Notes: generated by a model from the letters alone, not told the origin. A DNA stretch of 64,000 nucleotides from Armatimonadota bacterium (GCA_013178155.1 JABLXH010000008.1:1-64000), one strand, 5' to 3'; counted from the first letter of the stretch, positions 26,101 to 56,205 are shown. Translations and numbers: made by a program.

Positions 26101-26745
26101 CAGGTCGTCGGTCATGCGGATAGGGTACTCGCGGACCTCGGGGAAGAGCAGGAAGGGCTCGCCGGCATGGGCCGCCCGCAAGGCTTGCACCTCGTCGGCC
26201 GTCGCACAAAGCTCCATCGGGTCACGGCGATGGAACGGGCTGCAGGCCTCGAAGCGCAGCAGTTGCGCTTCCGGCAGCGAGCGCCATGCCCCGTCGCCTC
26301 GCTCCTGTGTTCCCAGGTGATGGCGGGCGAGCCAGTCGCTGTGGGCCCGGGATTCGGCCGGCACGTACTGTACCCGTGGCGAGTACCATTCACCGCTGGT
26401 GGTGTAGGGCATGAAGTAGATGTGGTACACGCCAGCCACTGGGGCCTGGAAGACCACATCGCCGGCCTCGCGGTTGACGACCGGGGCGATGCCGTTCTCG
26501 ATCTGCTGACCCGAGGGCCCATGGACCCAGATGGCCTTCCGTTCGGGCTCGGCATCGCGCCGCCGCCAGGGCAGGTGCACCCGCACGGCGTCGGCGGCCT
26601 CGGCTACGCGCACGACGGCACGTTGGTTGCCCAGCTCGGTGGACTTCCAGGAGCCCACGCCGTACTCCACGGCCGCCACCTCCTGGCTCTGCAGGGCCAG
26701 CAGCAGGCTAGCCAGAGCATAGAATAGGGCCAGACATGGTCTCAT
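23137..26745 (-). CDS. Large secreted glycoside-hydrolase-like protein (DUF6067/GH123-N-like, LamG-like C-terminus)
   Basis: The 1202-residue protein begins [19 protein letters not shown], a signal peptide. Residues about 215-340 contain [25 protein letters not shown], like the N-terminal sandwich of GH123/DUF4091/DUF6067 proteins. A supersandwich-like middle leads to a TIM barrel (about 640-900) with [45 protein letters not shown] and [12 protein letters not shown]; an Asp in YLDG or DFHSG is the likely catalytic region. The last 180 residues form a concanavalin-like domain beginning [19 protein letters not shown] infer an extracellular glycosidase on a complex glycan, family unproven. ATG 26745 was preferred over a GTG two codons earlier. 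The stop overlaps the rubredoxin stop. Confidence 0.65.
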
Positions 26746-26926
26746 CGCCACTCACCCCCAGGGGTGGGGTCTTCGGCCAGGCGACAACCTTCCTGGGCCC
26801 ATTCCTCACCCCGAGCCCGAGCCCCTCCGCGACGTTGGCAGGTCGGTCTGTTGGCCGTGAGGAAGTGGTTCCCGGTCGGCCAAGACCAGCCGGTCCCATC
26901 ATGGCAGATAGCCCAGGGAGCTTCGC

Positions 26927-29199: not shown

Positions 29200-30180
29200 A
29201 TGAACCATGCCGAACGCTTCCGTGCTGTGATGGGCTTCCAGCCCGTGGACCGCCTGCCACGCATCGAGTGGGCTAGCTGGTGGGACAAGACCGTAGCCCG
29301 CTGGGCCGAGGAGGGCCTGCCGGTCACCGACCGCTACGAGATGTACGAATACTTTGGCCTCGACCCTTACTACCAGTGCTGGTTTGGCCCGAGAGCAGCG
29401 GAGTTTCCCGGTCCTGAGGGCGGCTTCCCGGTCACAGGGCACGACGACTACGACCGGATCCGGCCCTACCTGCTGCCGCCCTTTGAGGAGACAGTGGAGA
29501 GCCTGCGTCCGTGGGGCGAGAAGCAGGCGCAAGGCGAGTGCGTGGTCTGGGTGACGATCGAGGGCTTCTTCTGGTACCCGCGCACGCTGTTTGGCATCGA
29601 GGCCCACTTCTACGCCTTCTACGACCACGCCGACCTGATGCACCGCATGAACCAGGAGCTGGCCGACTACCATGTCCGGCTGCTGAAGGCTTTGGCGCCG
29701 GTGTGCACACCGCTGTTTGTAGTCTTCGCCGAAGACATGTCGTACAACCATGGCCCCATGTTGTCCAAACAGCTTTTCGACGAGTTCCTGGCTCCCTACT
29801 ACCGCCAGGTCATCCCCGTGGTGGAAGAGATGGGAGCCCTGGTGATCGTGGACTCCGACGGCAACATCACCGACATGGTGCCGTGGATGCAGGGCGTGGG
29901 CATCCAGGGCGTGCTGCCACTTGAGCGCCAGGCAGGCGTGGACGGCAACGCCCTGCGCGCCGCCTTCCCGGACTTCCGCATGGTCGGCCATTTCGACAAG
30001 ATGACCATGCCTCACGGCGAGGCAGCCATGCGCGAGGAGTTTGAGCGCCTGCTCCCGCTCATGCGGTCCGGCGGCTTCATCCCCGGCGTGGACCATCAGA
30101 CGCCGCCGGGGGTGTCGCTGGAGCAGTACCGCGTGTACCTGCGGCTGCTGGAGGAGTACACGGTTCTGGGCGCGCAGTAG
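29200..30180 (+). CDS. Uroporphyrinogen-decarboxylase-like (URO-D superfamily) protein
   Basis: The 326-residue protein has the URO-D/MtaA fold pattern: MNHAERFRAVMGFQPVDRLP at the start, AEDMSYNHGPMLSKQLFDEF, IVDSDGNITDMV, MVGHFDKMTM and GGFIPGVDHQTPPGVS. Known members are either heme-pathway decarboxylases or methyltransferases acting on methylcobalamin and thiols. This branch lacks the genuine HemE N-terminal arginine motif, so HemE activity is unlikely. In Armatimonadota and Lentisphaerota such genes sit near carbohydrate loci with no known role; demethylation of methylated sugars or aromatics is one speculation. GAAGGA lies nine bases before the ATG at 29200. The secreted TIM-barrel gene follows 34 bp later. 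Confidence 0.8.
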   Translation: MNHAERFRAVMGFQPVDRLPRIEWASWWDKTVARWAEEGLPVTDRYEMYEYFGLDPYYQCWFGPRAAEFPGPEGGFPVTGHDDYDRIRPYLLPPFEETVESLRPWGEKQAQGECVVWVTIEGFFWYPRTLFGIEAHFYAFYDHADLMHRMNQELADYHVRLLKALAPVCTPLFVVFAEDMSYNHGPMLSKQLFDEFLAPYYRQVIPVVEEMGALVIVDSDGNITDMVPWMQGVGIQGVLPLERQAGVDGNALRAAFPDFRMVGHFDKMTMPHGEAAMREEFERLLPLMRSGGFIPGVDHQTPPGVSLEQYRVYLRLLEEYTVLGAQ

Positions 30181-30214
30181 ACGCTGCCCGCCGACACACC
30201 ACGCGAGGTGAACC

Positions 30215-32560
30215 ATGCGTTGCCTGTTGAGCTTGCTCCTGGCGAGCCCGATTCTGGCTGCCACGGTGGATTCTGCGTATTACGCGCCAGATCGGGGCGT
30301 GCTGTACAAGTGGTTTGAGGGGGCTCCGGGGATTCAGCAGTTTGTGGAGAAGGATTACCGGGCTGCAGGGTACCTGTGCCTGTACGTCCGCAACGGCGGC
30401 ACTGAGCCCATCAGCCCCACGAGCTTCACATGGAACGGTACAGCGCTTGATGACCTGCGGGCCAGACATGAAGTGATCTGGTGGCGCCTGCTGCCCCGGC
30501 CCCTGGCCCCGGGCATGGTTGGCGAGGTGATGGTCCGCCTGCGCAATCCGCTAACGGAGGCGGGGACGTTGGCTGTGAGCTTCGATGACGGCACCAGCGT
30601 GAGCGCTCGGATCGACCCCGATCCACACCCGCTGAAGATCGCCACCATCGGCTTCAGCGACAGTCGCGACCGCGTCTTTCTGGTCGCTGAGAGCCTTGAC
30701 GGCGCTGAGCGCCAACTGGCGCGGGTGTTGCTGGATGGCCGCGATGTCACCGCCAAGTGCCGTCTGCTGGCTCCGGGCTTCATCGGCGGGTGCTCGCCGG
30801 TCTCACTCCATCTGCTCGAACCCCTGGCTCTGGGCAGTTACCACACCTACACCGTGGTCACGAGCGACGGTGGGAGAGCCTCTGCCTGCGTGCGAACCCT
30901 GGACGCCTTTGTCCCCCTGGGCTCCTACGGCTATGGCACGCTGGAGGACTACGCCCGCAACGGTTGCAACAGTTACGCCAACTTCGCGCGCAGCGGCGAG
31001 GGTCTGCTGGACGGCATGGCGCGGCTGGGGATGCGCGGGGTGAGCATGATCGGCGACGCGCCGGTGGAGCCGTATGAAGTGAAGCACCCGGGGCTCTACG
31101 CGCACTACCTGATGGACGAGCCAGATTGCGGCGACTACTTCCAGGCCACTGAGTTGCCGCATCCCCTGCGCATCGGGTTTCTGGCGCCCGAGATCGAGCG
31201 GCGGGCCCAGACCGTGCGGGAGGGCAACCCCACCCGGCCCAGCTTCTTGACCATTGACCTCACCTACAAGCCGGCCAACTACTACATCTACGGTCCCATC
31301 GCCGACATCCTCAACCCGGACTGCTATCCGCTCAGCATCGGCGCCGATGCGACAATGGTGCGCGAGGTGGTGGAGACGGCGGTGCTGGCGGCGGGGCCGC
31401 GGCCGGTGACCTTCACCTTCCAGGGCGTCATGGAGGGGCCACGCGACCCCGAGAAGTTCGCCCAGAAGCGTTTCCCGCGTCCGAACTTCGCCCTGGAGCA
31501 GCGGGTGATGCTGTACTACGCCATCGGCGCCGGAGCGCGGGGCTTGTTCAACTACATCCACTGCACCGAGAACTCGCCCACCAACTGGTCCCGAGGGACC
31601 GGAGAGTTCCCCGATATCTGGAATGAGATTGGCCAGGTCTACCGCGAACTGGAACACGTCTCGCCCCTGCTGGCTCTGGCGCACCCGACGAAGCTGGCAA
31701 CCAGCTCGACGGACAAGCTCTGGCTGCGGACCCTTCTCTGCGGCGAGGAGGCGGTGCTGGTGGCATGGGTCAACGACAGCTACCAGCAGAACCGCCTCGG
31801 GGTGCGCTACCAGCCCCTGCAGGACGTCCGCATCAAGTTGCCCGACTTGCCGTGGCTGCGGAACTGGAAGGCTCACACGGTCGGGCCGGAAGGCTTTGCA
31901 CCGCTGGCCCGTTCGGGCGACGAGGTCCTGCTGCCCCGGGCTGAGGTGGCCGGGCTTATCCTGCTGACCCCCCGGGACGGTCTGGTTCGTGAGCTGGACG
32001 CCCGCTACGAAGAGCGGCAGCGCGAGATCGGCGCCTTCCTGCTGGCGGAGTGGCGGCGATCGCTGCAGCGACAGGCGGCGAACCTCAACCTCACGCGCCT
32101 CATCACCGGTGAGCTGGGGGCCTATGCCGTGCGGGGCCAGGGCCTGGGCGCTTACGGGATCAAACTCGACAGCTACTGGAACCCCTTCGAGACCGAGCAC
32201 AACGTGTTCGAGGGGGGGACCGAGGACCGGCAGGACACTGCCGAACGCGGAGCGGCGTTTGCGGTCGGCATACCCGCCGAGGCCGTGGGCGAGCGTTGGG
32301 TGGCCTATGCCTACTGCGGACGCTGGGGCCCCGCAGCGACGATGACAGTCACCGGCCCCGACGGCCGGGTACTGGCAACACGTGAGGTGGAGGCAGGCTG
32401 GGGCGGCGAGCTGGTGGTTCTGGGCTTCACGCCACGTGAAGCGGGCGAGCACCGCGTCACTTACGTACAGGGAGGGCCGGGTGCGCGTGGCATGCGGATC
32501 GCCGAGACCATCTACGTGCTGCCCGTCAGCGAGGCCTTCCCGCCGCTCCCGGTGCCGTAA
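30215..32560 (+). CDS. Secreted TIM-barrel protein, glycosidase-like, family not assigned
   Basis: The 781-residue product has a short signal peptide (MRCLLSLLLASPILA). Residues about 20-225 are beta-sandwich-like (EKDYRAAGYLCLYVRNGG). A TIM-like barrel follows: LEDYARNGCNSYANFA, LGMRGVSMIGDAP, YAHYLMDEPD with an acid pair typical of GH active sites, PSFLTIDLTYKP, DILNPDCYPL, TFTFQGVM, GARGLFNYIHCT. The C-terminal third holds a beta domain (KLWLRTLLCGEEAVLVAWVND) and a further sandwich. I infer an extracellular hydrolase and cannot give a numbered family. GAGGTGAAC precedes the ATG. It heads a plus-strand run of six carbohydrate-related genes. Confidence 0.6.
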   Translation: MRCLLSLLLASPILAATVDSAYYAPDRGVLYKWFEGAPGIQQFVEKDYRAAGYLCLYVRNGGTEPISPTSFTWNGTALDDLRARHEVIWWRLLPRPLAPGMVGEVMVRLRNPLTEAGTLAVSFDDGTSVSARIDPDPHPLKIATIGFSDSRDRVFLVAESLDGAERQLARVLLDGRDVTAKCRLLAPGFIGGCSPVSLHLLEPLALGSYHTYTVVTSDGGRASACVRTLDAFVPLGSYGYGTLEDYARNGCNSYANFARSGEGLLDGMARLGMRGVSMIGDAPVEPYEVKHPGLYAHYLMDEPDCGDYFQATELPHPLRIGFLAPEIERRAQTVREGNPTRPSFLTIDLTYKPANYYIYGPIADILNPDCYPLSIGADATMVREVVETAVLAAGPRPVTFTFQGVMEGPRDPEKFAQKRFPRPNFALEQRVMLYYAIGAGARGLFNYIHCTENSPTNWSRGTGEFPDIWNEIGQVYRELEHVSPLLALAHPTKLATSSTDKLWLRTLLCGEEAVLVAWVNDSYQQNRLGVRYQPLQDVRIKLPDLPWLRNWKAHTVGPEGFAPLARSGDEVLLPRAEVAGLILLTPRDGLVRELDARYEERQREIGAFLLAEWRRSLQRQAANLNLTRLITGELGAYAVRGQGLGAYGIKLDSYWNPFETEHNVFEGGTEDRQDTAERGAAFAVGIPAEAVGERWVAYAYCGRWGPAATMTVTGPDGRVLATREVEAGWGGELVVLGFTPREAGEHRVTYVQGGPGARGMRIAETIYVLPVSEAFPPLPVP

Positions 32561-32585
32561 GCTGGCCTGCAAAGAGAGGGGCTCC

Positions 32586-35219
32586 ATGCGTCGCTTTCAA
32601 CTCACCGTCGCCTTCCTGGCCCTGGGGGCCGGCCTCATGCCTGCGCCGACCAACGCCGGGACCTTCGCGGGTCGGTACGTCAGCGGCGAGGGTGACACCG
32701 ACTACCTGCGCCTGCTGGACACGTGCTACCAGATGCTCTACCCCAGCCCCGACCTGCAGAACATCGGGATGCTCTACACGCCGGCGTGGCACGGCTTCGT
32801 GGAGGGACCGACCTGGGGGGCCTGGTGGATCCAGAACAGCTATGGACCGACTTTCTGCGGCCTGCCGTTCTTCCGGGAGCCCTATTCTACCTGGGTCCGC
32901 AACTCTCAGGACCTGTGGTTCAGTCAGATGGGCGACGGGAAGCGCGAGGGTGGGGGTGACTGGCACTGGATCGCGCCCGATGGCTGTCTGTGCGACGCTG
33001 CCGCGCCGGGCTGGATCTTCTACAAGCAGGGCGACGGGCGGGTGGACATCCACGACTGGGGCATGGAGTTCACGGCCGCCGGCGTGGTCATGCAGGCCGA
33101 GATGCTGCTGGTCACTCGCGACCGGGCGGCCATCGCCCACTATCTGCCCCTGCTCGAACGGTCGGCGAACTTCCTGGAGACGCGGCGCGATCCGGCGAAT
33201 GACCTGTTCCTGGCCGGTCCTGCCGGGAATCTCCTGGCCCCCAGCTACGCCGGCTACAAGCGACCCGACGGGACCTACGACAAGGCCTATCTGACCGGCC
33301 TGTCGGTTACCACCATCGCGGCGCTCGACCGTCTCATCGAGCTGGAGAAGCTGGCGGGACGTGCGGCCGAGGCCGCCCTGTACGCTGACCGCCGCGACCG
33401 CGCGAAGCAGGGCCTGGCGCGGCTGATGACGCCCGCAGGCTACTTCATCAAGTACCTCGACCCCGATGGCACGCGCCACGGGGTCTACGGCGCCGAGAAG
33501 CACGGCTACTTCGAGGCGGTCTGCAACCACGATGCCATCGCGCTGCGGGTGGTGGACGAGGCCCAGGCGCGGCGCATCTGGCGGACCATGGGGGCCATCA
33601 GGGGGCTGCGACCCCATGACCTCATCATCACCAACTACCCCTCCCTGGATGACATGTATACCGAGCCCACCGGACTGTGGGAGTTTGGGCGCTGGGTCAA
33701 CGGCGGACACTGGACCACCTGTGAGGCGCGGATGATGCTGGCCTACTTCCGCCTGGGGGCCTACGAGGACGCGCGGCGGGCCATGGAGCAGCTTCTGGGC
33801 TTCGCGCGGCGTTTCCGGTTTGACAACCCGCTGGTGGACTTCGGCGGCGACGTGTACCAGCCGCAGGAGCCCGTCAACACTGTATATGACTCCTGGGGTG
33901 GGCCGCTGGGGATGCTGCGGGGGCTGTTTGAGTACCTGTACTCGGCTGACGAACTGACTCTCATCCCCCACATCCCGCCGGGCATCACCGCCCTGCGCCA
34001 GCAGTTCCCGGTGCGGTTCGGCGACAAGCAGGTCTTCCTGTCCACTTGCGGCACCGGGGCGGTCGCTGCCGTCTGGCTGAACGGACACCGCTGGAACCGG
34101 CACGACACCGCCTCCGTCACTTTGCCCTATGATGAGCTGCCGGCCCGGGCGCGAGTTGTCATTTGCCTGGGTGGCGCTGAGCCGCGCTTTGAGGCGAACC
34201 GCTGGCCGCCACCCCTGACCGTGCCGGATGAAGCTGACCCCTTGTGGGATATCCGTGCTCTCACCACAAGCCTGGCAGGCAACGGGCGTCCGCTGCGCCT
34301 GGGAGCGGACAGCAACGGACAGACGCGCCTCGTGGGTGACTTCCGGCGGGCACGGCTGTTCTCGCGGGCTCTCACAGAGGAGGAAGTCGCGGGGCTGGCC
34401 GCTGACCCCGGTGGGGAGTTCCCCGACCCGTCGCTGGTGGCCGACTACCTTCTGGACCGCTGCGCCGACGGCGTGTGTCCCAACCCCGCTAACCCCGACC
34501 TGCCGGCACAAGTCGTGGGGACGCTCGAGATGGTCCCGGTGGGCACCGGTCAGGCGGCGCGGTTCGCCGGGGAGGGGTACCTGGAAGTGCCGAGCGACCC
34601 GCGGCTGAACCTCACCACGGCCTATACGCTCGAAGCCTGGGTCCGGCCGGGTGAACTGCCGGGCAGCGGCGGGCGACTCATAGACCGCGTGACCGCCGGC
34701 GTGGATGACGGCTACCTCCTGGACACATGCCCTGGCAACAGCTTGCGCTTCATCACTGAGCAGGGGCACTTGGGCTATGCGGCACGATTGGTGCCGGGGG
34801 AATGGGTCCATGTCGTGGCGACGTTCGCCGAGGCCGAGGGCCTGCGCCTGTATCTGAACGGCTCCCTGGTGGCCAGTGCCGAAGCCTCCCGGCCAGCGGC
34901 CATGGTGGCATTGGCGCGGGTGGGGCGATTCTACAGGCACATGGAGGCCGCCGGCCTGGGTGACACCTTCGAGGCCCAGCAGGCACGTCTGGCTGTGGAG
35001 CACCTGAAGGCCTTGCGCGAGCGGGTAGACCTGATCCGGGCGGGCACGCTGCCATCCTTGCCTGGCCCCTCGGGGCCGGCTGCCGACCGGCTCTACCTGG
35101 ACACGGCGACAAAGCTCGCGGACGGCCTGATGCGACTGATGGAGAGTTACGAGACGGCGGGGGATCCAGTGCACGAACGTGCGCTAAGCGTCTGGCGGGA
35201 GGTTACGAGGGACCAATGA
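32586..35219 (+). CDS. Secreted alpha/alpha-toroid glycosidase-like protein with LamG-like domain
   Basis: The 877-residue protein starts MRRFQLTVAFLALGAGLMPAPTNA, a signal peptide. Residues about 35-480 look like an (alpha/alpha)6 toroid as in GH78/GH15/debranching enzymes: WGMEFTAAGVVMQAEMLLV, YDKAYLTGLSVTTIAALDRLIEL, HGYFEAVCNHDAIALRVVD, GLWEFGRWVNGGHWTTCEARM and YDSWGGPLGMLRG. A small beta domain follows, and residues about 640-790 form a LamG/concanavalin domain (YTLEAWVRPGELPG, WVHVVATFAEAEGLRLYLNG). The last 70 residues are helical. A glycan-cleaving enzyme with a binding module is likely. The start is at 32586 after GAGAGGGG. Its stop overlaps the next start as ATGA, indicating coupling. 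Confidence 0.7.
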   Translation: MRRFQLTVAFLALGAGLMPAPTNAGTFAGRYVSGEGDTDYLRLLDTCYQMLYPSPDLQNIGMLYTPAWHGFVEGPTWGAWWIQNSYGPTFCGLPFFREPYSTWVRNSQDLWFSQMGDGKREGGGDWHWIAPDGCLCDAAAPGWIFYKQGDGRVDIHDWGMEFTAAGVVMQAEMLLVTRDRAAIAHYLPLLERSANFLETRRDPANDLFLAGPAGNLLAPSYAGYKRPDGTYDKAYLTGLSVTTIAALDRLIELEKLAGRAAEAALYADRRDRAKQGLARLMTPAGYFIKYLDPDGTRHGVYGAEKHGYFEAVCNHDAIALRVVDEAQARRIWRTMGAIRGLRPHDLIITNYPSLDDMYTEPTGLWEFGRWVNGGHWTTCEARMMLAYFRLGAYEDARRAMEQLLGFARRFRFDNPLVDFGGDVYQPQEPVNTVYDSWGGPLGMLRGLFEYLYSADELTLIPHIPPGITALRQQFPVRFGDKQVFLSTCGTGAVAAVWLNGHRWNRHDTASVTLPYDELPARARVVICLGGAEPRFEANRWPPPLTVPDEADPLWDIRALTTSLAGNGRPLRLGADSNGQTRLVGDFRRARLFSRALTEEEVAGLAADPGGEFPDPSLVADYLLDRCADGVCPNPANPDLPAQVVGTLEMVPVGTGQAARFAGEGYLEVPSDPRLNLTTAYTLEAWVRPGELPGSGGRLIDRVTAGVDDGYLLDTCPGNSLRFITEQGHLGYAARLVPGEWVHVVATFAEAEGLRLYLNGSLVASAEASRPAAMVALARVGRFYRHMEAAGLGDTFEAQQARLAVEHLKALRERVDLIRAGTLPSLPGPSGPAADRLYLDTATKLADGLMRLMESYETAGDPVHERALSVWREVTRDQ

Positions 35220-37441
35220 CCAGGCTCGCTGCTGCTGTGTCGCTGATCCTGATCTGTCACTGCGCCCTGGCCGCTTCACCCCCGGACATCCCCCGGCTGG
35301 ACTGGGAGGAGCGCTCGGACTGGGTCAACGTCCAGACCGACGTGACGCCGGCGGCCGTAGGCGACGGCCAGGCCGATGACACTGCCGCCCTGCAAGCGGC
35401 GCTGGACCTGCCCGGGGACGGGGTGAGCATCTACCTGCCTGCGGGGACCTACAGGATCACGGGCCCGCTGGTGTGGAACGGCCCCCGCGTGGGCTGTTTG
35501 CTCATCGGGCACGGTCGCGACACCCGGTTGGTATGGGACGGCCCGGACGGGGGAGTGATGTTTCGCAGCAACGGCGTGGCCTACAGCCGTTACGTCGGCC
35601 TGACGTGGGACGGACGGGGCAAGGCAGCGGTCGGCTTTGACCACAAGTCCGATGAACGTTTCGAGACCGAGGTCCGCCACCAACACGAGGCCTACCGCGA
35701 CTTCACCGGCTATGGCATCCGCATCGGTCACGAGCAGAAAGTGGCCTCGGCGGAGATCACCTACCTCAACTGCCTGTTCGAGCGGTGCGGCACTGCGGTG
35801 GCAATGCTCACCTTCAACGACTACGACAACAGCTTTGACGGCTGTGAGTTTCGGGACTGCGGTACTGGCATCTTTGACTTCAAGGGCAACTTCTACGCCC
35901 GCAACTGCCACTTCGAGCGCAGCCGCACCACCGACTTCCATATCCAGAGCGAGCATGGGGACTCCATCCGCCGCTGCACCTCCTTCGGCTCCCAACGCTT
36001 TGTCACCGAGGGGGGGACCATCGCTCCGCTGACCATTCAGGACTGCCATGTGGCGGCCTGGAAGGACGCCGAGGGCGCGGTTGTGCTGGCCGGGGCGCCG
36101 GTGCTGATGTTTGACTGCGTTTTCAGCCGGCCGCCCTCCGCCCGACCGGCGGTGCGGCTGCTGAGCGCTTCCCAGCGACTGCTCATCTCCCAGAACACCC
36201 CCGACGAGGTGGAGAAGCTGGTCGAGCGCGTGCCGGGCGCGGAGATCCATTTCATCCCGCCGGGACAGCGACGGGGAGTCGTGAAGAGCGCACGCCAGAG
36301 CTTCCTGCGGTCGGAGGTCTCACAGCCGGGCAAGGTCTATGACGCCGTCCGCGACTTCGGCGCCAAGGCTGACGGGAAGACCGACGACACCGCGGCACTT
36401 CAGGCGGCCATTGACGCCGCGCGCGAGCACGGTCAGGGCGCGATCGCCTATTTCCCTGCCGCCCACTACGCCATCAGCCAGAGCTTGCGTGTGACCGGTG
36501 GAGGGTACACCGTCGGCGGCAGCGGCTTCATGACCCGTCTGCTGTGGACCGGACCCGCCGATGGGGTGGGCATGGAGGTGTCCGATCCGCAGGAGGTGAC
36601 CCTGCAGGCCTTCACCATCGGCCACCATGACGCCGGGCCGTACCAGACTGCGGCCGACATCCGGCAGACGTCCACCGGCGGTCCCTCTCGCTGCAACTAC
36701 GATTACGTCTTTGCCTACGGGATGTACCAGAAACAGCCCGACCGGCAGGGCATCCTGTTTCAGAATCTGTCGCCCGGGAGCGTCGTTTACGCCCTTCACA
36801 CCCAGGGCAATCTGCGCTTCGATGACAGCGCCTCGGCTCGCTTCCTGTTCGCTAACTCCTATGAGGGCACCGTTTCGGTCCAGGGGCGACGGCGGGAGCG
36901 CGAAGGCATTCTGGGGTTCATGATGCGCCTGGCCACCCTCAGCGATCCTACCGTTCATGTCCGCGACAACCAGTCGCTGGTGATGAGCGACTTCTATGTG
37001 GAGCAGGCGGATCGGCACCTGCTGCTGGAGGGCGAGCCGGAGTTGCCCCCCGGTGCCGTGACCGTTCAGGGCGCGAAGATACACCTGAACGTTGACCAGC
37101 CCATCCTCGAGGCCAGGGGCTACCACGGACGGGTGTACCTGGGCCAGAACCAACTGTACATCAACCCCAAGGAGCCGCGATTCGTCACCACCGGCGAGGG
37201 AGCGCTGGAACTGGCGCTCTGTGGGCTGTTCCTTTACGACGTGACACCGCGCTTTGAGCTCGGGCCGGGCACCCGGCTGATGCTGGCGGCGAACCAGGGC
37301 CTCGACAACGCGGGGGTCGAGCGCCCGGAGGGCCACCAGGCCATCGCGGCCGCGCTGGACGACCTGCGCCGTCTGGGCCAGCTCGATCACCAGATCAACG
37401 GCTGGCTGCCGGTGCCAAAGGGGAAGCTGATCGGAGAGTAG
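35216..37441 (+). CDS. Secreted double right-handed beta-helix protein (pectate-lyase-3 superfamily)
   Basis: The 741-residue protein carries a signal peptide (AAAVSLILICHCALA) and two beta-helix repeats of the Pectate_lyase_3/GH55-like type. Each opens with a similar phrase: VNVQTDVTPAAVGDGQADDTAALQAALD near residue 40 and VYDAVRDFGAKADGKTDDTAALQAAID near 375. Tandem helices of this kind occur in GH55 glucanases and phage-like depolymerases. The first helix has several turns with Asn/Asp/Gly ladders (NCLFERCGTAVAML, CEFRDCGTGIFDFK). I infer an extracellular polysaccharide lyase or hydrolase. It is coupled to the gene upstream by an ATGA overlap. The substrate is unknown; pectin-type or beta-glucan chains are likely. 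Confidence 0.75.
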   Translation: MTRLAAAVSLILICHCALAASPPDIPRLDWEERSDWVNVQTDVTPAAVGDGQADDTAALQAALDLPGDGVSIYLPAGTYRITGPLVWNGPRVGCLLIGHGRDTRLVWDGPDGGVMFRSNGVAYSRYVGLTWDGRGKAAVGFDHKSDERFETEVRHQHEAYRDFTGYGIRIGHEQKVASAEITYLNCLFERCGTAVAMLTFNDYDNSFDGCEFRDCGTGIFDFKGNFYARNCHFERSRTTDFHIQSEHGDSIRRCTSFGSQRFVTEGGTIAPLTIQDCHVAAWKDAEGAVVLAGAPVLMFDCVFSRPPSARPAVRLLSASQRLLISQNTPDEVEKLVERVPGAEIHFIPPGQRRGVVKSARQSFLRSEVSQPGKVYDAVRDFGAKADGKTDDTAALQAAIDAAREHGQGAIAYFPAAHYAISQSLRVTGGGYTVGGSGFMTRLLWTGPADGVGMEVSDPQEVTLQAFTIGHHDAGPYQTAADIRQTSTGGPSRCNYDYVFAYGMYQKQPDRQGILFQNLSPGSVVYALHTQGNLRFDDSASARFLFANSYEGTVSVQGRRREREGILGFMMRLATLSDPTVHVRDNQSLVMSDFYVEQADRHLLLEGEPELPPGAVTVQGAKIHLNVDQPILEARGYHGRVYLGQNQLYINPKEPRFVTTGEGALELALCGLFLYDVTPRFELGPGTRLMLAANQGLDNAGVERPEGHQAIAAALDDLRRLGQLDHQINGWLPVPKGKLIGE

Positions 37442-37550
37442 CGCCACCACGGCCAGCGAGCCCTGGCGTTGGCACCGGAGCAACCAAACGGGGGTCCCAC
37501 TGCCGGCGCCGCTGGCAATGGGCCCTGGCAACTGCCCTGGGAGGCCTCAC

Positions 37551-38630
37551 ATGCCTGCCACACCTCACATCGTCGTCGCTGCCCCCGCCACCGAGGAGTT
37601 CCCTCGGCAGTCAGAGGGGACGATTGCTGAACTGGCCGATGGCCGCCTGCTGCTGGTCTGGCAGGAGTTCTGGAGGGGCGACCAGGGCCACCTGGACAGT
37701 GACTTCTGGCCTGCCCGGCTGATGGCGATGACCTCGGCCGACGGTGGGCTGACCTGGGGTGAGAAGCGGGTCGTGGCCAGGCCCGGAGGCGACGAGGTGA
37801 GCTGCTACAGCCCCAGCCTCCTGCGCCTGCCCGATGGCGGCCTGCTTCTGGGCTTCATGCGCTACCACAGTGTCTCGCCCATCCTGTCCACCGGCGAGGT
37901 CTGGGTCTCCCATGACGAGGGTCAGACCTTTGCCCCTCTGGGCCGTGGCTGGGAGCGTAGACCCTACGGGCCCACGAATAATGTCATCAAGCGGTTGTCC
38001 TCCGGGCGCCTGCTCTGGCCCATCTCGGCGCCAGCGCCGGAGGCCGAAAGCGTGGCCGACCCGTGGGTCAACGGCGTGGTCTACAGCGACGACGGTGGCG
38101 CGACGTGGCGGGAAGCCCGGAACTGGGTGGCCCTGCCCATGCGTGGGGCCATGGAGCCACATGTGGAGGAACTGCGCGACGGCCGCATACTCATGAACAT
38201 GCGGACCCAGCTCGGTGCGATCTTTCACGCCTGGTCGGAGGACAGTGGAGTGACCTGGTCCCTGGCCCAGACCAGCGGCCTGCGCTCACCGGAGTCCTGC
38301 CCGGAGCTGGTGCGCATCCCCCGGACCGGCGACCTCCTGGTCGTCTGGAACAACGCACCCTACGACCCCGGCCACTTCTCTCATTTCGGGATGCGGACGC
38401 CGCTCACGGTGGCCATTTCCCAGGACGAGGGGCAGACCTGGGGCCACGTCCGCGACATCGAGACCGACCCCGGAAGGGCGTTCAGCAACCCGGCCTGCAA
38501 CTTCACCAGCCAGGGCACGGCGGTCTTCAGCTACTGGACCTCCGAGTACCTGCCCACGGGGGCCATGCGCGACGCCCCGATTGACCTGCGCGTGGCGGTG
38601 GTGGACCTGGACTGGCTATACGAAGACTGA
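37551..38630 (+). CDS. Sialidase-like beta-propeller with five Asp-box motifs, no signal peptide
   Basis: The 359-residue protein has a six-bladed propeller signature with five Asp boxes: SADGGLTW, SHDEGQTF, SDDGGATW, SEDSGVTW and SQDEGQTW. The opening EGTIAELADGRLLLVWQEF and MEPHVEELRDGRILMNMR segments match the exo-alpha-sialidase/BNR superfamily. Members cleave sialic or other sugar acids, or are non-enzymatic. An arginine triad could not be confirmed by eye. GGAGG lies six bases before the ATG at 37551, so the longer frame to 37518 is not used. The lack of a signal peptide, unlike all its neighbours, suggests a cytoplasmic role. Confidence 0.82.
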   Translation: MPATPHIVVAAPATEEFPRQSEGTIAELADGRLLLVWQEFWRGDQGHLDSDFWPARLMAMTSADGGLTWGEKRVVARPGGDEVSCYSPSLLRLPDGGLLLGFMRYHSVSPILSTGEVWVSHDEGQTFAPLGRGWERRPYGPTNNVIKRLSSGRLLWPISAPAPEAESVADPWVNGVVYSDDGGATWREARNWVALPMRGAMEPHVEELRDGRILMNMRTQLGAIFHAWSEDSGVTWSLAQTSGLRSPESCPELVRIPRTGDLLVVWNNAPYDPGHFSHFGMRTPLTVAISQDEGQTWGHVRDIETDPGRAFSNPACNFTSQGTAVFSYWTSEYLPTGAMRDAPIDLRVAVVDLDWLYED

Positions 38631-38642
38631 GGTAAACAACCC

Positions 38643-41525
38643 ATGATACGAGGCCCTGCACTCATGCTCACGATGGGACTTGTCGCGACGGCGGGGATGG
38701 CCGCTGACTCGGTGCGACCCGGGTTTGTGCTGGCGAATGAGCAGTGCCGTTACGAGGTCAGCGGTGATGGTCGAAACACTTACTTCGGCTCACCGGATGG
38801 AGAGCACAACGTCTGCGCGCCGGAACAGCCCTTCATGCAGGTGGGCATCGCCGGCAAGCTCTACCCGTCATCGTCCGTACTGCTAGTCCAGCAGACCCTG
38901 CGGGTGGAGTTTGCCGGTACCGACGTGGTCGTGGGCCTGCGGCCCGAGGCCAAGCCCGGCTATCTGGCTCTGACCGTCACCAAGGTCCAGGGGACTGGGA
39001 TCGAGTGGCTGCAACTGGCTAACCTGCACCTGACCATCAGCGAGAACGTGGGCACCCTGGTCAATGCGGCGTGGGATGACCGGTTCGCCGCCTGTGTGCT
39101 GGCCTGCAACGAACAGGTCGAGTCCTTCGGCGCGGACGCCAGCCGTGGCCAGCTCTGCGCCCGCTGCTACCCGGAGTTCGGTATGGTCGGCGCCCGCGTA
39201 GCCATCATTGGGCTGCCCACCGGATCGCCCGAACCGCAACGCCAGCTCCTGAGCGCCATTGGTCGTGTCGAACTGGCCGAGGGCCTGCCGCACCCGACCC
39301 TCAACGGTGTGTGGATCAAGGAGTCTCCCGAGCGGTTCCGGTCCTACCTGATGGTCCATGACCTGGGCGAAGCCAACGTGGATGACGTCATCGAGGTGGC
39401 GCGGAACGGCTTTGGCTGCATCGAGTTCTACCCCTGGCGTTCGACCCCATCCTACGAGATCAACACGGGGCTTTTCCCGCACGGGCTGGAAGGGCTGAAG
39501 GCTGTCTGCGACAAGATCCACGCGGCGGGGATGCAGGTGGGTCTGCACATCATGCAGGGCATGGTCGGCTGGGGCCCCAAGGATGATCCCTACCTTGTGC
39601 CCAGGGCCGATCCCCGGCTGCTGCAGGACCGCCGCGGAGTGCTGGCGGAGGCCCTGGACGAGCAGGCGACGACGCTCACGCTGGAGGGCGGCACAGCGGG
39701 CTGGCCGGATGAAGGCGATGTTCTGGTGGCGGGTGAGATCATCCATTACGCCAGGCGGACCGACAGCGGCTTCACCGACTGTCAGCGCGGCCTGCACGGG
39801 ACCACGGTCGCCGCCCACCCCGCCGGAACGGCGGTCGGCCACCTCGTCAACTGCTTCCCCATCTGGGGCTACACGGTCTACGCCCCGGACATCCAGACCG
39901 ACATGGACGAGGAGATCTGCGACCGACTGGCCGAGGTGTTCAATGCCGTGGGAGCGGATATGTCCTATCTTGACGGGGGCGAGGAATTGCTCTACCAGTC
40001 GGAGCCGCGCTGGCGCAGCATCGGCACCTTTGCCCTCGGTCTGCAGAAGCGCCTCGAGAAGCCAGTCTTCATGGGCGGCAATGCCTGCTACACCCATCAC
40101 TCCTGGCACGTCATCACGCGCGGCAGCCCGCACTTCGACCCCATCCACTTCGGCCGCCGGGAGTACACCCTGCGCTTCAAGGGCATCAACCCGGCCTACC
40201 ACGCCAAGAACCTTCTCAGTGGCGATGTGGGCTGGTTCGCCCCCCATGTCCACTCCCTGACCGCTGAGGCTGTGACGCCCGACGAGGTGCTGCTGTTGTG
40301 CCTGAAAGCGCTGGGCGGGAACGCGCCCATCTCCTTCAGCGTCAGCGCGGCGAACCTGTGGAATAACGAGCGCATGCCGGAGATGCTGGCGATCATCCGG
40401 GCCTGCGACGAGCTGAAGCAGCAGCAGTACTTCAGCCCCTCTGCGCTGGCGGCGCTGACGGAGCCGCGGGCGGAGTTCGACCTGCAGCAACGCGCTGACG
40501 GAGAGTGGGACCTGCGGCCCATGCAGTTTGGGCCGCCCATAGTGGCGAACGCCGCAGACGAGGCTCGGGCGGCGTGGACTGCCGACAACCCCTATGGCGC
40601 ACAGAGGCCATTCATCCGGCTCCGGGCGCGCAGCCGCCTGGCGGCCTACGGCGACCCTGGAAACGTGGTGTTGGTGGACCCGGCAGCGGGCAATCCGTTC
40701 GTGGCCGAGGGCACGGCGGCCGACAACCTCACCCAGAGCATAGAGCCGGCGATTGAGAAAACGCCGGACGGTGCCGCCGCCCTGGCCTACACGGCAGCCA
40801 ACAACGGCGACGGCCCCTCCGGCTGGACCAAGATTGCGGCCAAGCTCCCGGCTCCCGTGGACATCTCACAGCACCGCCGCCTGGGGCTATGGGTGAAGGC
40901 CAACGGCAGCGGTGGCATCCTTAACGTTCAGTTAGCAGGTACCAACTGTCGCCGTGACCACTACATCCCCCTGGACTTCAGCGGCTGGCGGTACGTCGAG
41001 CTGGAGCAGCCCGAGGACCGCCGGTACTGGGAATACTCCTGGCCGGGGACATGGACCGACCTGTTCTACACCGACTGGAGCATTTACAGCGCCACCAGCG
41101 AGGTGGGCCTGTACTTCAATGGCCTGCCCGCCGGCGCGCGGGCGGAGTGCCTCATCGGGCGCCTCGAGGCCCTGCGGGAACTGCCGGGGGCGCTGCAGTC
41201 GCCGGGGCTGGAGGCGGGTGGACAACAGCTCACCTTCCCGGTCAGCCTGCAGCCGGACGAGTATGTGGAACTGGACTTCGCCGGGCGTTGCCGGCACTTC
41301 GACCCCAATGGGAAAGTGCTGGCGACAGTCTCGCCCTCGGGCGAGTTGGCGCTGGAGCCGGGGGCCAACACCGTGCGCCTGGTCTGCGCTGCCGCGGACG
41401 AACACACCACCCGGGCCGAGGTGACCCTGGCTCTGCGCGGTGAACCCTTGACGGGGGCCCGGCGGGCAGGAGTTACGGCACGGACCGGCCGGTACCCGTC
41501 GTTGGCGGCGGATCCACAGGAGTAG
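38643..41525 (+). CDS. Large secreted TIM-barrel protein, family not recognised
   Basis: The 960-residue product has a signal peptide (MLTMGLVATAGMAA). The N-terminal 200 residues form a beta-sandwich with RVEFAGTDVVVGL. The TIM-like barrel spans about 215-590: VIEVARNGFGCIEFYPWRS, FPHGLEGLKAVCDKIHAAGMQVGLHIMQG, YAPDIQTDMDEEICDRLAEVFNAVGADMSYLDGG and KPVFMGGNACYTHHS; the SYLDGGEE acids are catalytic candidates. A small inserted repeat (DEQATTLTLEGGTAGWP...GEIIHYARRT) sits inside the barrel. Residues about 690-850 resemble a galactose-binding domain (WTKIAAKLPAPVDISQHRRLGLWVK). I cannot assign a GH family; related orphan proteins appear in Planctomycetota-type genomes. It starts 12 bp after the sialidase-like gene. 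Confidence 0.55.
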   Translation: MIRGPALMLTMGLVATAGMAADSVRPGFVLANEQCRYEVSGDGRNTYFGSPDGEHNVCAPEQPFMQVGIAGKLYPSSSVLLVQQTLRVEFAGTDVVVGLRPEAKPGYLALTVTKVQGTGIEWLQLANLHLTISENVGTLVNAAWDDRFAACVLACNEQVESFGADASRGQLCARCYPEFGMVGARVAIIGLPTGSPEPQRQLLSAIGRVELAEGLPHPTLNGVWIKESPERFRSYLMVHDLGEANVDDVIEVARNGFGCIEFYPWRSTPSYEINTGLFPHGLEGLKAVCDKIHAAGMQVGLHIMQGMVGWGPKDDPYLVPRADPRLLQDRRGVLAEALDEQATTLTLEGGTAGWPDEGDVLVAGEIIHYARRTDSGFTDCQRGLHGTTVAAHPAGTAVGHLVNCFPIWGYTVYAPDIQTDMDEEICDRLAEVFNAVGADMSYLDGGEELLYQSEPRWRSIGTFALGLQKRLEKPVFMGGNACYTHHSWHVITRGSPHFDPIHFGRREYTLRFKGINPAYHAKNLLSGDVGWFAPHVHSLTAEAVTPDEVLLLCLKALGGNAPISFSVSAANLWNNERMPEMLAIIRACDELKQQQYFSPSALAALTEPRAEFDLQQRADGEWDLRPMQFGPPIVANAADEARAAWTADNPYGAQRPFIRLRARSRLAAYGDPGNVVLVDPAAGNPFVAEGTAADNLTQSIEPAIEKTPDGAAALAYTAANNGDGPSGWTKIAAKLPAPVDISQHRRLGLWVKANGSGGILNVQLAGTNCRRDHYIPLDFSGWRYVELEQPEDRRYWEYSWPGTWTDLFYTDWSIYSATSEVGLYFNGLPAGARAECLIGRLEALRELPGALQSPGLEAGGQQLTFPVSLQPDEYVELDFAGRCRHFDPNGKVLATVSPSGELALEPGANTVRLVCAAADEHTTRAEVTLALRGEPLTGARRAGVTARTGRYPSLAADPQE

Positions 41526-41535
41526 CTGCACCGAA

Positions 41536-41596
41536 GCTTGTCGGTTGCAGCGTGGCAGGCCGGCGCACCGAGCCGACTGCAGACGCTGCGGCAAGC
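41536..41596. terminator. Two-part stem-loop downstream of the 960-residue protein gene
   Basis: Nested complementary arms GCTTG/CAAGC and GCAGCGT/ACGCTGC enclose about 29 bases. It lies just after the stop at 41525 and before the GH123-like gene, so a terminator or processing site is the simplest reading. No T-run is seen. Confidence 0.4.
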
Positions 41597-41694
41597 CCCG
41601 GGGATGACGTGAGGCAGGTACGCTGGCGCGGCTGGGGAAATCGCGCCATTGCTGGACTGCGTCCGGTCCGATACGCGGGGAAGGAGTGGTTTTG

Positions 41695-44600
41695 TTGAGG
41701 GTGACAGTGATTCCTCTGCTCGTCCTGTCGCTGCTTGCTGTGCCAGGCTCGTTCAGCGTTGCCGACCCTGGCGCTCAGGTGTGCCCCACAGCCGTCGTAC
41801 CCCTGGCCACCGGCGCGGACGTCCAACTGGACGGCCGTCTCGACGAAGCGGCGTGGCAGTCGGCGCAACTGCTGGGGCCTTTCCTGAACCTCGACGGTCG
41901 CCCCGCCCGCGGCGAGACGCTGGCCCACGTGCTGTGCGCGGACGGCCACCTCTACATCGGGTTCCGGTGCTCGCTGGAGCTCGCTCGGGCCCCGCAGCTT
42001 ACCGACCGCCAGCGCGACGCGGATGTGTACCTCGATGAGAGCGTCGAGGTCTTCGCCGATGCCGGTGCGACGATGCGCACCTATCGACACTTCATCCTCA
42101 ACCTCGGCAACGTCCAGCGTGACGAGAGCGGCGATATCCAGTCCGCGACGCCCTATGAGGTGTCCTGGAACGCCGACTGGCAGTCAGCCACAAGCCGGGA
42201 GGAGGGCCAGTGGACCGCCGAACTTGCCATCCCGCTGGCTGAGCTGGGTCTGGACCCGGACCGTCCGGGTCTGGTGGGGTTGAACCTTTGCCGGAATGAC
42301 ACGACTCGCGGCGAGTCGACCTGCTGGTCGCCGACGCTGAGTGGCTTCCATGTGCCGCAGCGCTTCGGGCTGGTCACTTTCGGCGGTACCAGCCCAGCTC
42401 TCAAGCTGACGGTCACCGACCATGGTTCACAGGAGGCGGGGACTTCGGTCCAGACCCTGCGGCTGGAGTCAGCGGGGAGTTGGCCGTCGCTGCAGGCTCG
42501 CGCGGTCACCATGACCGGCAAGCGGCGGCAGGAACGGGCTGTGGCGGTGCCGGAACTGGTGGCCGGCATGTCCGCCGAAGTGCGGGTGCCCTACCGGCTG
42601 CTGTCAGCGCAGACCACCGCCGTGCTGGTGACGGTCAGCGTCCCCGGGGGGCCGGTGGTCGCTGCCAGCAGGGCTGTGTACGACCTGCCGACGGTGCTCA
42701 ACGAGGATTTCGGCTACGCGCTGGCCGGAGGAGAGAAGCTGGGCCTGTGGTGGGCGGAGGCCACCTACAAGATCCACCGCGACAAGCCCGCGCCGACAAC
42801 GGTGACACCGGCGGTGACGATGACTGCCGCGGGACGGGAGTACGAGTGCGCTCAGATCGTCTTGCGGCCCCCTGAGGACGTGGAGGTGGAGGTCCGCCTC
42901 GGCAACTTTGTGGGCGTCCAGGGACGTCTGGAAGCGCGACACTTCGAGCTGCTGCATGTGGACTATGTTCCGGTGACCACCCCCACCGACAGCTTTGGCT
43001 TCCCCGGGGACTGGCCGGATCCGCTGCCGCCCGTCGCCGGCCAGATCCAATGCCGCGCTGGCGTCAACCAGCCCATCTGGCTGCGCGCCTATGTCCCGGC
43101 CGGTACGCGGCCCGGTCTCTACCGCGGAGCCGTGACCTTCCGCGCCGGCAGCGACGTCTGCGTGGTGCCCGTGCACCTGCGCGTGCGGGCCTTCAGCCTC
43201 ACGGAGGAGACCCACACCGCCACCGCCTATGGGATGTCGCCGGACTACAGCTTCCTGGGTATCACCGACCCGGCGCAGCAGGAGCGGGTCTATGACCTGT
43301 ACCTGCAGAATATGGCTCGGCATCGCATGGCGCCCTATGACCCGCTGCGCTACTACCAGCCGGTCATCCGCATGCAGGGCCCGGGGCGGACCTACCAGTT
43401 CGGGCGCTTCGGGATAGCCCTGGACCAGACGCAGGAAAGCCCCTGGACCTTCACCTGGGACGGCAAGCCGGTCGCGTGGCAGCAGACCTCGATGACGCAC
43501 TTTGAGAAGGTCGGCGTGGGTTACCAGGGGAGTGGCGTGAGCTGGCCCTACGTGAACGCCATCCAGTCGGTCAAGGAGGTTAGCGCGACGCCGACCATGC
43601 GGGTGCTGGAGGTGGTAGCGGCGTATACCGGCTCTCAGCCGGCACAGCGCAGCTTCCGGCTGGTCTTTCGCATCTACGTGCCCAACGGCGACAACTGGCT
43701 GGCGATGCGGCTGCTGCGCATGGAGGGTACCGATCCGACAGAGGTGGAAGTGCGCGAGTTCTACCACCTGCCGCGCACCGCCTTCACCGCCAAGCAGGTC
43801 GCCAATGGCCCTGACTATGCCGCCTGGTCGGGCGACGGGCTGGGCTTCGGCATGATCTGGCTCGACGGGGCTGTACGCACGGCGGGCATCACCGTCGGCG
43901 CCGAGGCCCTCAATGTTGCCAATCCGGTGGAGCCGTTCCGTATCCGTGAGGGCCAGACCCACGAGGGCTGGGGGCCGCTGGCGGTGTACTTTGTGACCGA
44001 CAAGACCTCAGCGGACGGCCTGACGGAAGCTGTCCAGGCGATCAAACAGCGCCTCGACCCTCGCGACCCGGGAAGCTATCAGCCCGCTGCGCCCACCAAG
44101 GCGGAGGTGCAAGAGCGCCAGGACTTCACCTTCTCCCATGACTTCACGAAGCTCGACGAGGGCTGCCGCAAGTACCTGGACGGCTACGGCTTCACGGCCT
44201 TCAACCTGGCCTGCATGCCCGGCAGCATCGGCGGGTACGGCCGGGGCACGCCAGAGTTCGCTCGCCTGCACAAGCTCATGTACGGCCCGCTCATCGAGCA
44301 TCTGCGCGAGAAGGGGTGGCTGAGCAAGGCGTACTCCTACTGGTATGACGAGCCGGACGAAGCGGCCTATCCCACAGTGATCGAGGGCATGAAGCTGTTG
44401 GGCGAGAACTGTCCGGGCCTGCGACGGCTGCTGACCGAACAGCCAGAACCGCCGCTGTATGGGTATGTGGACCTTTGGGTGCCTGTCACCGCGGCCTTTG
44501 ACCCCGCCCGCTGTCGTCAGCGTCAGCGGGCGGGCGACGAGGTTTGGTGGTATGTCTGCTGCGGCCCGCACGCCCCCTATGCCAACGACTTCATTGACCA

Positions 44601-45102
44601 CCCGGCGCTCAACCCGCGCCTGCGTGCCTGGCAGGCCGAGAAGTACGGAGTGACGGGCGAGCTCTACTGGCACCTGAACTGGCGTGCCAACAAGCCCGAC
44701 GGCACGCCCAAGAACCCCTGGACCGACGCCATGAGCTACACGCCCGACGGCGGCACCTGGGGCAACGGCGATGGGTTCATGCTCTACCCGGCCTGCCGCG
44801 AACCCAGCGACACGCCCGTTATCGCGGGGCCAGTGGACTCGATCCGATGGGAGATGCTGCGCGAGGGGCTGGAGGACCGCGAGTACTTCTGGCTGTTGCG
44901 GCAGGAAGTGGCGCGGCTGGAGGGCATGTCGGCCGGGGATGGCCCCGCAGCCGCGGCCCTGGACCAGGCCCGGCGCGCGCTGCGAACACCGGACCGACTG
45001 TCGCGCAGCCTCACTGACTATACTCATGACCCACAGGACCTCTATGCGGCACGCGAGCAGGTGGCGGCCGCCATCGAGGCATGCCGCCGTGTCACACACT
45101 GA
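41695..45102 (+). CDS. Secreted CBM9-like and GH123/DUF4091-like glycosidase
   Basis: The N-terminus is a signal peptide (VTVIPLLVLSLLAVPGSFS). Residues about 30-220 match a CBM9-like carbohydrate-binding domain (LDGRLDEAAWQSAQ, LYIGFRCS, YLDESVEVFADAG). The rest is a GH123/DUF4091 architecture: YECAQIVLRPPEDVEVEV, GDWPDPLPPV, YSYWYDEPDEAAYPTV with the adjacent Asp-Glu catalytic pair used in GH123 by substrate assistance, and the closing GDGFMLYPACRE...IRWEMLREGLEDREYF. Known GH123 members are beta-N-acetylgalactosaminidases; this one may differ. About 1135 residues. The start is uncertain: AAGGAG is followed by GTG 41686, TTG 41692 and TTG 41695, and the last has the best spacing. Confidence 0.82.
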   Translation: MRVTVIPLLVLSLLAVPGSFSVADPGAQVCPTAVVPLATGADVQLDGRLDEAAWQSAQLLGPFLNLDGRPARGETLAHVLCADGHLYIGFRCSLELARAPQLTDRQRDADVYLDESVEVFADAGATMRTYRHFILNLGNVQRDESGDIQSATPYEVSWNADWQSATSREEGQWTAELAIPLAELGLDPDRPGLVGLNLCRNDTTRGESTCWSPTLSGFHVPQRFGLVTFGGTSPALKLTVTDHGSQEAGTSVQTLRLESAGSWPSLQARAVTMTGKRRQERAVAVPELVAGMSAEVRVPYRLLSAQTTAVLVTVSVPGGPVVAASRAVYDLPTVLNEDFGYALAGGEKLGLWWAEATYKIHRDKPAPTTVTPAVTMTAAGREYECAQIVLRPPEDVEVEVRLGNFVGVQGRLEARHFELLHVDYVPVTTPTDSFGFPGDWPDPLPPVAGQIQCRAGVNQPIWLRAYVPAGTRPGLYRGAVTFRAGSDVCVVPVHLRVRAFSLTEETHTATAYGMSPDYSFLGITDPAQQERVYDLYLQNMARHRMAPYDPLRYYQPVIRMQGPGRTYQFGRFGIALDQTQESPWTFTWDGKPVAWQQTSMTHFEKVGVGYQGSGVSWPYVNAIQSVKEVSATPTMRVLEVVAAYTGSQPAQRSFRLVFRIYVPNGDNWLAMRLLRMEGTDPTEVEVREFYHLPRTAFTAKQVANGPDYAAWSGDGLGFGMIWLDGAVRTAGITVGAEALNVANPVEPFRIREGQTHEGWGPLAVYFVTDKTSADGLTEAVQAIKQRLDPRDPGSYQPAAPTKAEVQERQDFTFSHDFTKLDEGCRKYLDGYGFTAFNLACMPGSIGGYGRGTPEFARLHKLMYGPLIEHLREKGWLSKAYSYWYDEPDEAAYPTVIEGMKLLGENCPGLRRLLTEQPEPPLYGYVDLWVPVTAAFDPARCRQRQRAGDEVWWYVCCGPHAPYANDFIDHPALNPRLRAWQAEKYGVTGELYWHLNWRANKPDGTPKNPWTDAMSYTPDGGTWGNGDGFMLYPACREPSDTPVIAGPVDSIRWEMLREGLEDREYFWLLRQEVARLEGMSAGDGPAAAALDQARRALRTPDRLSRSLTDYTHDPQDLYAAREQVAAAIEACRRVTH

Positions 45103-45126
45103 GAGGAGTACAGGAGGCCGCCGGGA

Positions 45127-46008
45127 ATGGGCAAGCGCTTCTATGTGACAGTTGACGACCCCGGGGGCCTGATCCAGGACCTGGCCATCTTCGAGCGAGC
45201 GCGGCGCTTCTTCGACCAGGAAGCTGTCCCGGCGACGTTCTTTGTGGTGCCCCGAGGGGAGGGTGACTGGCAGCTTGACCGGCAGCCGGACTGGCTCGCA
45301 GCGCTGCAGGGCGCCGAGGCCGACGGTCATGACTGCCAGCTCCATGGCCTGGACCACAAGGGCTGCGAGTTTGGGCCCATCCCGGACATGATCGTGGCCC
45401 TGGGGGGAGACCTGGAGGCCGGACGGCAGCGCTACCGCGACCAGTACTGGCACATGTGGCGACCCGACGCCTACCGCGATAAGCTGCAGATCGCCATCGG
45501 CATCTTCGCGGCAGCCTTTGGACGACAGCCCTTGTGCTTCCGGACGGGCGCCCTGTCCCAGGAGCCGGTGTTATATGAGGTGGTGGCTGACCTGGGGATG
45601 AAGTATGTCTCCAACAAGGTCACTGACCCGCGGGGTTGGAGGTACATTATCGAGCAGTACGATGACCCCGGCGACTGGGACCCCGAGGTGCCTTCGCAGC
45701 CATACTGGCTCACCGACCGGGTGATCAACCTCCCCATCATCAGCGAGTACGCCTGGTACTTGACCCCGGAGAAGATCGCGCCGCACCTGGCGCTGGCGGT
45801 GGAAGACATGGGCCGCGTGTATGCTGAGGGCGATGTGTTCCTGCTGGTGTGTCATGTGCAATGCGTCGGGGCGGAGGACGGGTTGTCGCAGGAACTGCTG
45901 AGACGTCTGTTTCGGGTGGCACGGCAAGAGCATGATGTCACGTTTGAGACGGTGAGGGACCTGGTCCAGGGCATTGAAGAGGGTTCCTTGCCGGTCCTTG
46001 GCAAGTAA
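45127..46008 (+). CDS. Polysaccharide-deacetylase-like protein (CE4/NodB fold)
   Basis: The 293-residue protein has the CE4 metal and catalytic motifs in abbreviated form: VTVDDPG with D10/D11, QLHGLDH with H73 and H77, and FRTGALSQ later. These residues bind Zn or a similar metal and deacetylate N-acetylated sugars in cell-wall or exopolysaccharide. There is no signal peptide, so a cytoplasmic role or an unusual substrate is likely. AGGAGG lies nine bases before the ATG. The DegT aminotransferase gene follows 42 bp later, and a small winged-helix-like gene after that. It is not the standard extracellular PgdA type. Confidence 0.78.
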   Translation: MGKRFYVTVDDPGGLIQDLAIFERARRFFDQEAVPATFFVVPRGEGDWQLDRQPDWLAALQGAEADGHDCQLHGLDHKGCEFGPIPDMIVALGGDLEAGRQRYRDQYWHMWRPDAYRDKLQIAIGIFAAAFGRQPLCFRTGALSQEPVLYEVVADLGMKYVSNKVTDPRGWRYIIEQYDDPGDWDPEVPSQPYWLTDRVINLPIISEYAWYLTPEKIAPHLALAVEDMGRVYAEGDVFLLVCHVQCVGAEDGLSQELLRRLFRVARQEHDVTFETVRDLVQGIEEGSLPVLGK

Positions 46009-46050
46009 CTATACCTGGCCCCGCCCGGCGGGCCGCAGAGGGAGATCAAG

Positions 46051-56079: not shown

Positions 56080-56205
56080 ACGCACCTCCGGCAGATACGG
56101 ACGCAGGCAGCGCAGCGGGTGTAAAGTTCGTCGCCAGCTTGGCCGCCTCCTGTATGGAATTCGCTTCAGTTATGCCAACTTGCTCGCCCAAAAAGGGAAG
56201 AGGTG

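Follow-up and report, generated by a model that had tools for sequence, protein, structure and literature searches.

A run of six adjacent carbohydrate-related genes on one strand raises the question of whether they form a pathway for one glycan or a grouping peculiar to one lineage. We addressed this for genes g19 to g24, which lie in a 64-kb stretch of contig C190 (hereafter, the window) from the metagenome-assembled genome of an uncultured bacterium most likely belonging to the Armatimonadota (5.5 Mb, 211 contigs, GC 66.5%). An earlier interpretation made without database searches (hereafter, the sequence-only reading) had taken the six genes for a coordinated cascade depolymerizing one complex glycan, and considered their 781- and 960-residue products to be new at family level. 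With moderate confidence, we favor a lineage-specific, operon-like glycan gene group that was built from families common in Armatimonadota and shuffled between loci, with the gene roles proposed below.

Each of the six genes was searched for in the same 100 relatives. The families were found to differ in their spread, with matches (at differing E-value cut-offs) in 47 (g19), 27 (g20), 18 (g21), 47 (g22), 47 (g23) and 81 (g24) of 101 genomes. The best homologs of the six genes are located on separate contigs or far apart. For example, one relative with about 40 contigs (G016) has homologs of g20 and g21 at a distance of 130 kb on one contig, and its g19 homolog is on another. No second member of the six was detected beside the best homologs in about 40 distinct places (gene neighborhoods and ten named loci, the latter all g19 relatives, as the collection scan that gave them used g19 patterns only), except for weak GH123/CBM9-type matches (26-32%) near the g19 homologs of two relatives (G042 and G075). 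Given how many GH123-type domains this group has, such neighbors are expected occasionally. Signal-peptide-like N-termini were identified in g19, g20, g21, g23 and g24, and none in g22. With homologs that are not co-located, differing phyletic spreads and a single product without a signal peptide, the cascade is not supported; gene spacing speaks in its favor, conservation does not.

The run of six consecutive same-strand genes was itself confirmed. All six open reading frames (ORFs) are present at 30215-45102 and carry the coding signature of the genome, with a G+C content of 0.84-0.86 at the third codon position (GC3) versus approximately 0.5 at the second. They are included in a directon of nine same-strand genes (g18 to g26, 29200-47199), which are separated, from first to last, by 34, 25, -4, 76, 12, 160, 24 and 42 bp. 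The junctions up to 41525, described earlier as very short or overlapping, are indeed short, yet g21/g22 (76 bp) and g23/g24 (160 bp) do not overlap. The g20 ORF had been listed from a GTG at 32382, but its true start is probably the ATG at 32586, which opens a signal peptide. We discount the 178-nt overlap between g19 and g20 as an artefact of start-codon annotation, because the signal peptide and the homolog alignments begin at about 32586, and the real gap is 25 bp. Promoter- and terminator-like sites were no more abundant in a scan than in shuffled sequence, so it is spacing that carries the operon idea.

Nine tightly spaced genes on one strand would also suit a dedicated polysaccharide utilisation cluster, the products of which act sequentially on one glycan rich in alpha-linked galactose (Gal) or N-acetylgalactosamine (GalNAc), beta-GalNAc and acidic sugars. 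Similar sugars are implied by g23 (alpha-Gal/GalNAc-like, from its PDB matches), g24 (beta-GalNAc) and g22 (sialidase fold), and the weak neighbors of the g19 homologs mentioned above could be read in the same way. However, the dispersal and unequal spread of the homologs and the lack of a signal peptide in g22 argue against it, and family annotation of the directon detected no transporter, sensor or binding-protein genes among g18 to g26. The conserved co-localisation and the transport and sensor genes that define a polysaccharide utilisation locus were not found, and we consider such a cluster unlikely.

As regards new families, the sequence-only reading has good support for g19 and partial support for g23. 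No relatives of g19 were found in Pfam, NCBIfam or the PDB sequences, and the family members and a 17-member profile were likewise without a match in Pfam and PDB. An AlphaFold2 (AF2) model based on 11 sequences had a predicted local distance difference test (pLDDT) score of 87.3 and a predicted template modelling (pTM) score of 0.82. It bore out the TIM barrel guessed for this gene: a (beta/alpha)8 barrel is accompanied by beta-sandwiches, a long helix and, at the C-terminus, a beta-domain. Structural comparison of predicted models had been suggested as a check and was run for g19; the hits in the PDB were generic TIM-barrel hydrolases alone (GH2, GH5, GH66, GH30 and GH101), with template modelling (TM) scores of at most 0.44. 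Judged against Pfam, NCBIfam and PDB, g19 is thus the best candidate for the founder of a new glycoside hydrolase (GH) family. Most records returned by the collection scan with g19 patterns were from Armatimonadota, among them a Candidatus Zipacnadia metagenome-assembled genome, and one was from Phycisphaerae.

Eight residues are invariant in all 17 sequences of the g19 family (D301, E302, P303, D304, D307, D369, Y371 and E428). In common with clan GH-A (GH2 glucuronidase, GH5 mannanase) and GH66, the modelled g19 has a beta-sandwich and a TIM barrel with a Glu where strand 4 ends. Unlike these, it has an Asp-Glu-Pro-Asp motif there, and its strand 7 ends without a conserved carboxylate. The latter position (column 403) is occupied by Gln in 11 sequences, Glu in three, Asn in two and Ser in one; as it is mostly Gln, the clan GH-A nucleophile is not conserved in this family. 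A clan GH-A retaining enzyme was accordingly rejected for g19, and a distant relationship to GH123 via the shared DEP motif was unsupported (hhalign probability of 0.2%).

The second protein claimed as new, g23, has no family in Pfam or NCBIfam, and a Melibiase domain did not exceed the Pfam cut-off. Its 15-member profile matched alpha-galactosidases and an A-type blood-group galactosaminidase in the PDB at an E-value of about 0.002 (0.0016). In an hhalign comparison with GH36 sequences collected within the phylum, it had a probability of 91-93% (E-values of 1e-6 to 2e-7), versus 0.1 and 2% in two control comparisons. Novelty at family level is half supported for g23: no Pfam family covers it, but the profile matches GH36, and the family is a large one (47 of 101 genomes). 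The likeness to GH36/GH27 alpha-galactosidases includes the profile pattern 'GD...NP..FP.GL..L.D.iH..Gl.fGL', the invariant Asp of a Y-x-D motif and a second invariant Asp, a pair (Asp444 and Asp499) as would be expected for clan GH-D, in which the two residues would lie on strands 4 and 6; for g23 these strand positions are putative. In contrast to that clan, g23 has no Pfam Melibiase match, carries a phage-tail-like module inside the barrel, and ends in a CBM11-like part (CBM_11 was detected in seven of the 15 family members). The inserted module of approximately 80 residues matches virion structural (5e-8), baseplate wedge (3e-7) and tail (phrog_1101, 8e-6) profiles, and in a relative a tail profile was matched at 5e-8. 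The key residues of the insertion motif GEIIxY...C.RG..GT...H..G are kept in all 15 aligned members. A scan of viral contigs revealed no g23 relatives.

There are recent CAZy families without a Pfam model, and both g19 and g23 could belong to existing CAZy families outside Pfam and NCBIfam, in which case neither would be novel at family level. That both families are widespread in Armatimonadota is in line with this, which we regard as possible but somewhat unlikely, given that solved structures resemble g19 in no more than the generic barrel and that the match of g23 to PDB alpha-galactosidases is only marginal.

For g22, the predicted sialidase fold was recovered as BNR_2, and the family profile matches GH33 sialidases at approximately 1e-21, with an Asp-box propeller. 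R30, D62, E213, R229 and R293 are unvarying in 28 of 28 family members, and we take them, by analogy with 1eur, to be the Arg triad, the Asp acid/base and the Glu. The column that presumably corresponds to the Tyr nucleophile was placed by reference to the Micromonospora enzyme, the PDB alignment ending before that position. In this column, 24 of the 28 members have Tyr, Asn is present in g22 and in the two intact sequences nearest to it (L095 and L096), and one member is ambiguous due to an assembly gap. Judging from the alignment, the replacement is a trait of the g22 subclade, the 24 Tyr-keeping members being more distant. g22 thus shares the BNR/Asp-box propeller, three Arg, the acid/base Asp and the Glu with GH33 sialidases (e.g., Micromonospora viridifaciens 1eur), and differs in having Asn for the Tyr nucleophile and no signal peptide. 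Tyr mutants of a retaining sialidase act by inversion (Watson et al. 2003, as cited in PMC6254351), and g22 may thus be an enzyme that inverts by nature, or else a protein that only binds its sugar.

Loss of the Tyr nucleophile by the g22 subclade, the lack of a conserved strand-7 nucleophile in g19, and the presence of LamG, CBM9 and CBM11-like modules would fit a group consisting mainly of degenerate enzymes or of proteins that bind carbohydrates or sit at the surface, with g22 especially being a non-catalytic lectin. We consider this improbable, because acidic residues are invariant in g19, g23 and g24 over many genomes, and the best homologs of g20 across the phylum retain 52-69% identity, suggesting a constrained active site. 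It is doubtful, and put forward tentatively, that two proposals hold jointly, namely that g19 founds a GH family (Asp-Glu-Pro-Asp at strand 4, neither clan GH-A nor GH123) and that g22 represents an inverting sialidase-fold lineage with a replaced Tyr.

The domains guessed for the other products also held. The GH123_cat domain of g24 scored 81.8 bits (curated cut-off, 23.1), and the solved structures closest to it are those of beta-N-acetylgalactosaminidases (8k2j, E-value of 7.8e-35). Such enzymes have been placed in GH123 and four sister groups with a common DE motif and substrate-assisted catalysis, in the study that provided the 8k2j structure (PMC11087588). g24 resembles GH123 and sister groups 1-4 (NgaDssm, NgaCa and NgaLy; PMC11087588) in GH123_cat, a beta-sandwich of the GH123 N-terminal type, the Asp-Glu dyad and the domain order, and departs from them in having an additional CBM9-like module at the N-terminus and a long segment that separates the N-terminal part from the catalytic one. 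By domain and motif, g24 is a predicted GH123-type beta-N-acetylgalactosaminidase. GH123-type catalytic domains have multiplied strongly in these bacteria, with 18 in this genome, a maximum of 37 in one relative and at least one in 31 of 31 genomes. The gene at 23137-26751 (- strand), 3.5 kb upstream of the six genes, encodes a protein of 1204 residues in which the GH123_N domain is complete (1202 bits).

g21 scored 98.9 bits for PF12708 (cut-off, 27), in agreement with the pectate-lyase-like beta-helix superfamily. In g20, the LamG-like part was clear, and the toroid scored 18.5 bits for the MGH1-like domain, under the curated cut-off of 27. It differs from MGH1-like/GH63-type alpha-toroid hydrolases (PF22422) in this score and in the LamG-like C-terminus found in part of the g20 family. 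These results point weakly to g20 being a remote GH63/MGH1-like toroid with a LamG domain.

Under the lineage-specific grouping that we favor, the genes would be co-transcribed and the five probably secreted products (g19, g20, g21, g23 and g24) would each cleave one linkage type. g24 would remove beta-GalNAc by substrate-assisted catalysis via Asp888-Glu889, and g23 would use the Asp444/Asp499 pair in a retaining mechanism on an alpha-linked sugar, in the manner of alpha-galactosidases or alpha-N-acetylgalactosaminidases. g20 would be a toroid hydrolase bearing a LamG-like lectin, g21 a uronan or rhamnogalacturonan-type beta-helix enzyme, and g19 a TIM-barrel hydrolase with Glu302, within Asp-Glu-Pro-Asp, as the general acid. 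g22 would be a cytoplasmic sialidase-fold protein in which the usual Tyr nucleophile route is closed. Several points weigh against parts of this interpretation. The match between g23 and GH36 spans only 90 columns, and a single-sequence model of g23 (pLDDT of 34) gives no strand positions for D444 and D499. The alignment of the g20 profile with the MGH1-like set is co-linear over 341 columns but weak (20%). The active site positions of the g19 model were read off secondary structure rather than coordinates. Moreover, the contigs of the relatives are often short and could hide some clusters.

Table 1 Genes of the directon and predicted functional sites in g19 to g24.
Feature	Coordinates	Strand	Description	Basis
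g18	29200..30180	+	URO-D / MtaA-CmuA-like, first directon gene	PF01208 5e-11; ATG 29200 start from translation
g19	30215..32560	+	781 residues, secreted (predicted); beta-sandwich, (beta/alpha)8 barrel and C-terminal beta-domain	AF2 model
g19 Asp301-Glu302-Pro303-Asp304	31115..31126	+	End of barrel strand 4, putative catalytic acid	Invariant 17/17; DSSP strand E294-301
g20	32586..35219	+	877 residues from corrected start; signal peptide, alpha-toroid (about 25-540), LamG-like C-terminus	LamG 3e-24, MGH1-like 0.0017
g21	35216..37441	+	741 residues, secreted (predicted); two pectate-lyase-like right-handed beta-helices	PF12708 4.7e-28, 3 stretches
g22	37518..38630	+	370 residues, sialidase fold (BNR_2), without signal peptide	PF13088 2e-29
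g22 Asn324	38487..38489	+	Position of sialidase Tyr nucleophile	Family alignment
g23	38643..41525	+	960 residues, secreted (predicted); clan GH-D/GH36-like barrel, CBM11-like C-terminal part	hhalign to GH36 set
g23 barrel insertion	39615..39872	+	About residues 325-410, phage tail/baseplate-like module	Profile matches
g23 Asp444	39972..39974	+	Y-x-D motif, putative nucleophile	Invariant 15/15
g23 Asp499	40137..40139	+	Putative acid/base	Invariant 15/15
g24	41686..45102	+	1138 residues, secreted (predicted); CBM9-like and GH123-type catalytic domain	GH123_cat 7.6e-23, CBM9_1 9.8e-7
g24 Asp888-Glu889	44347..44352	+	Catalytic dyad (predicted)	Aligned with DE of 8k2j; invariant 14/14
g25	45127..46008	+	Polysaccharide-deacetylase-like / DUF2334, without signal peptide	
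g26	46051..47199	+	DegT/DnrJ/EryC1/StrS aminotransferase, last directon gene	PF01041 1.2e-61

Other glycan-related genes were identified in the window, including those for a glucuronyl-esterase-like protein (26927-28021, + strand), a GH141-like beta-helix protein (53341-56085, - strand) and a GH4 enzyme (57556-58947, + strand). Two URO-D/MtaA-CmuA-like proteins adjoin carbohydrate genes, one being g18 and the other located beside the GH4 enzyme (58969-60195). The two ends of the window (3-1946, - strand, and 62088-63998, + strand) encode related proteins with approximately 33% mutual identity, the first with DUF6785/DUF6784.

The Armatimonadota are almost uncultured, and some of their sugar enzymes escape family-based annotation. 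The locus offers three expressible targets, the TIM-barrel family of g19, with matches in 47 of 101 genomes and absent from Pfam, NCBIfam and PDB, the GH36-like family of g23 with its phage-tail-type module within the barrel, and the g22 subclade without the catalytic tyrosine. The last would provide a test of whether nature has produced inverting sialidases with the GH33 fold. More generally, adjacent carbohydrate genes in Armatimonadota need not make a conserved pathway.

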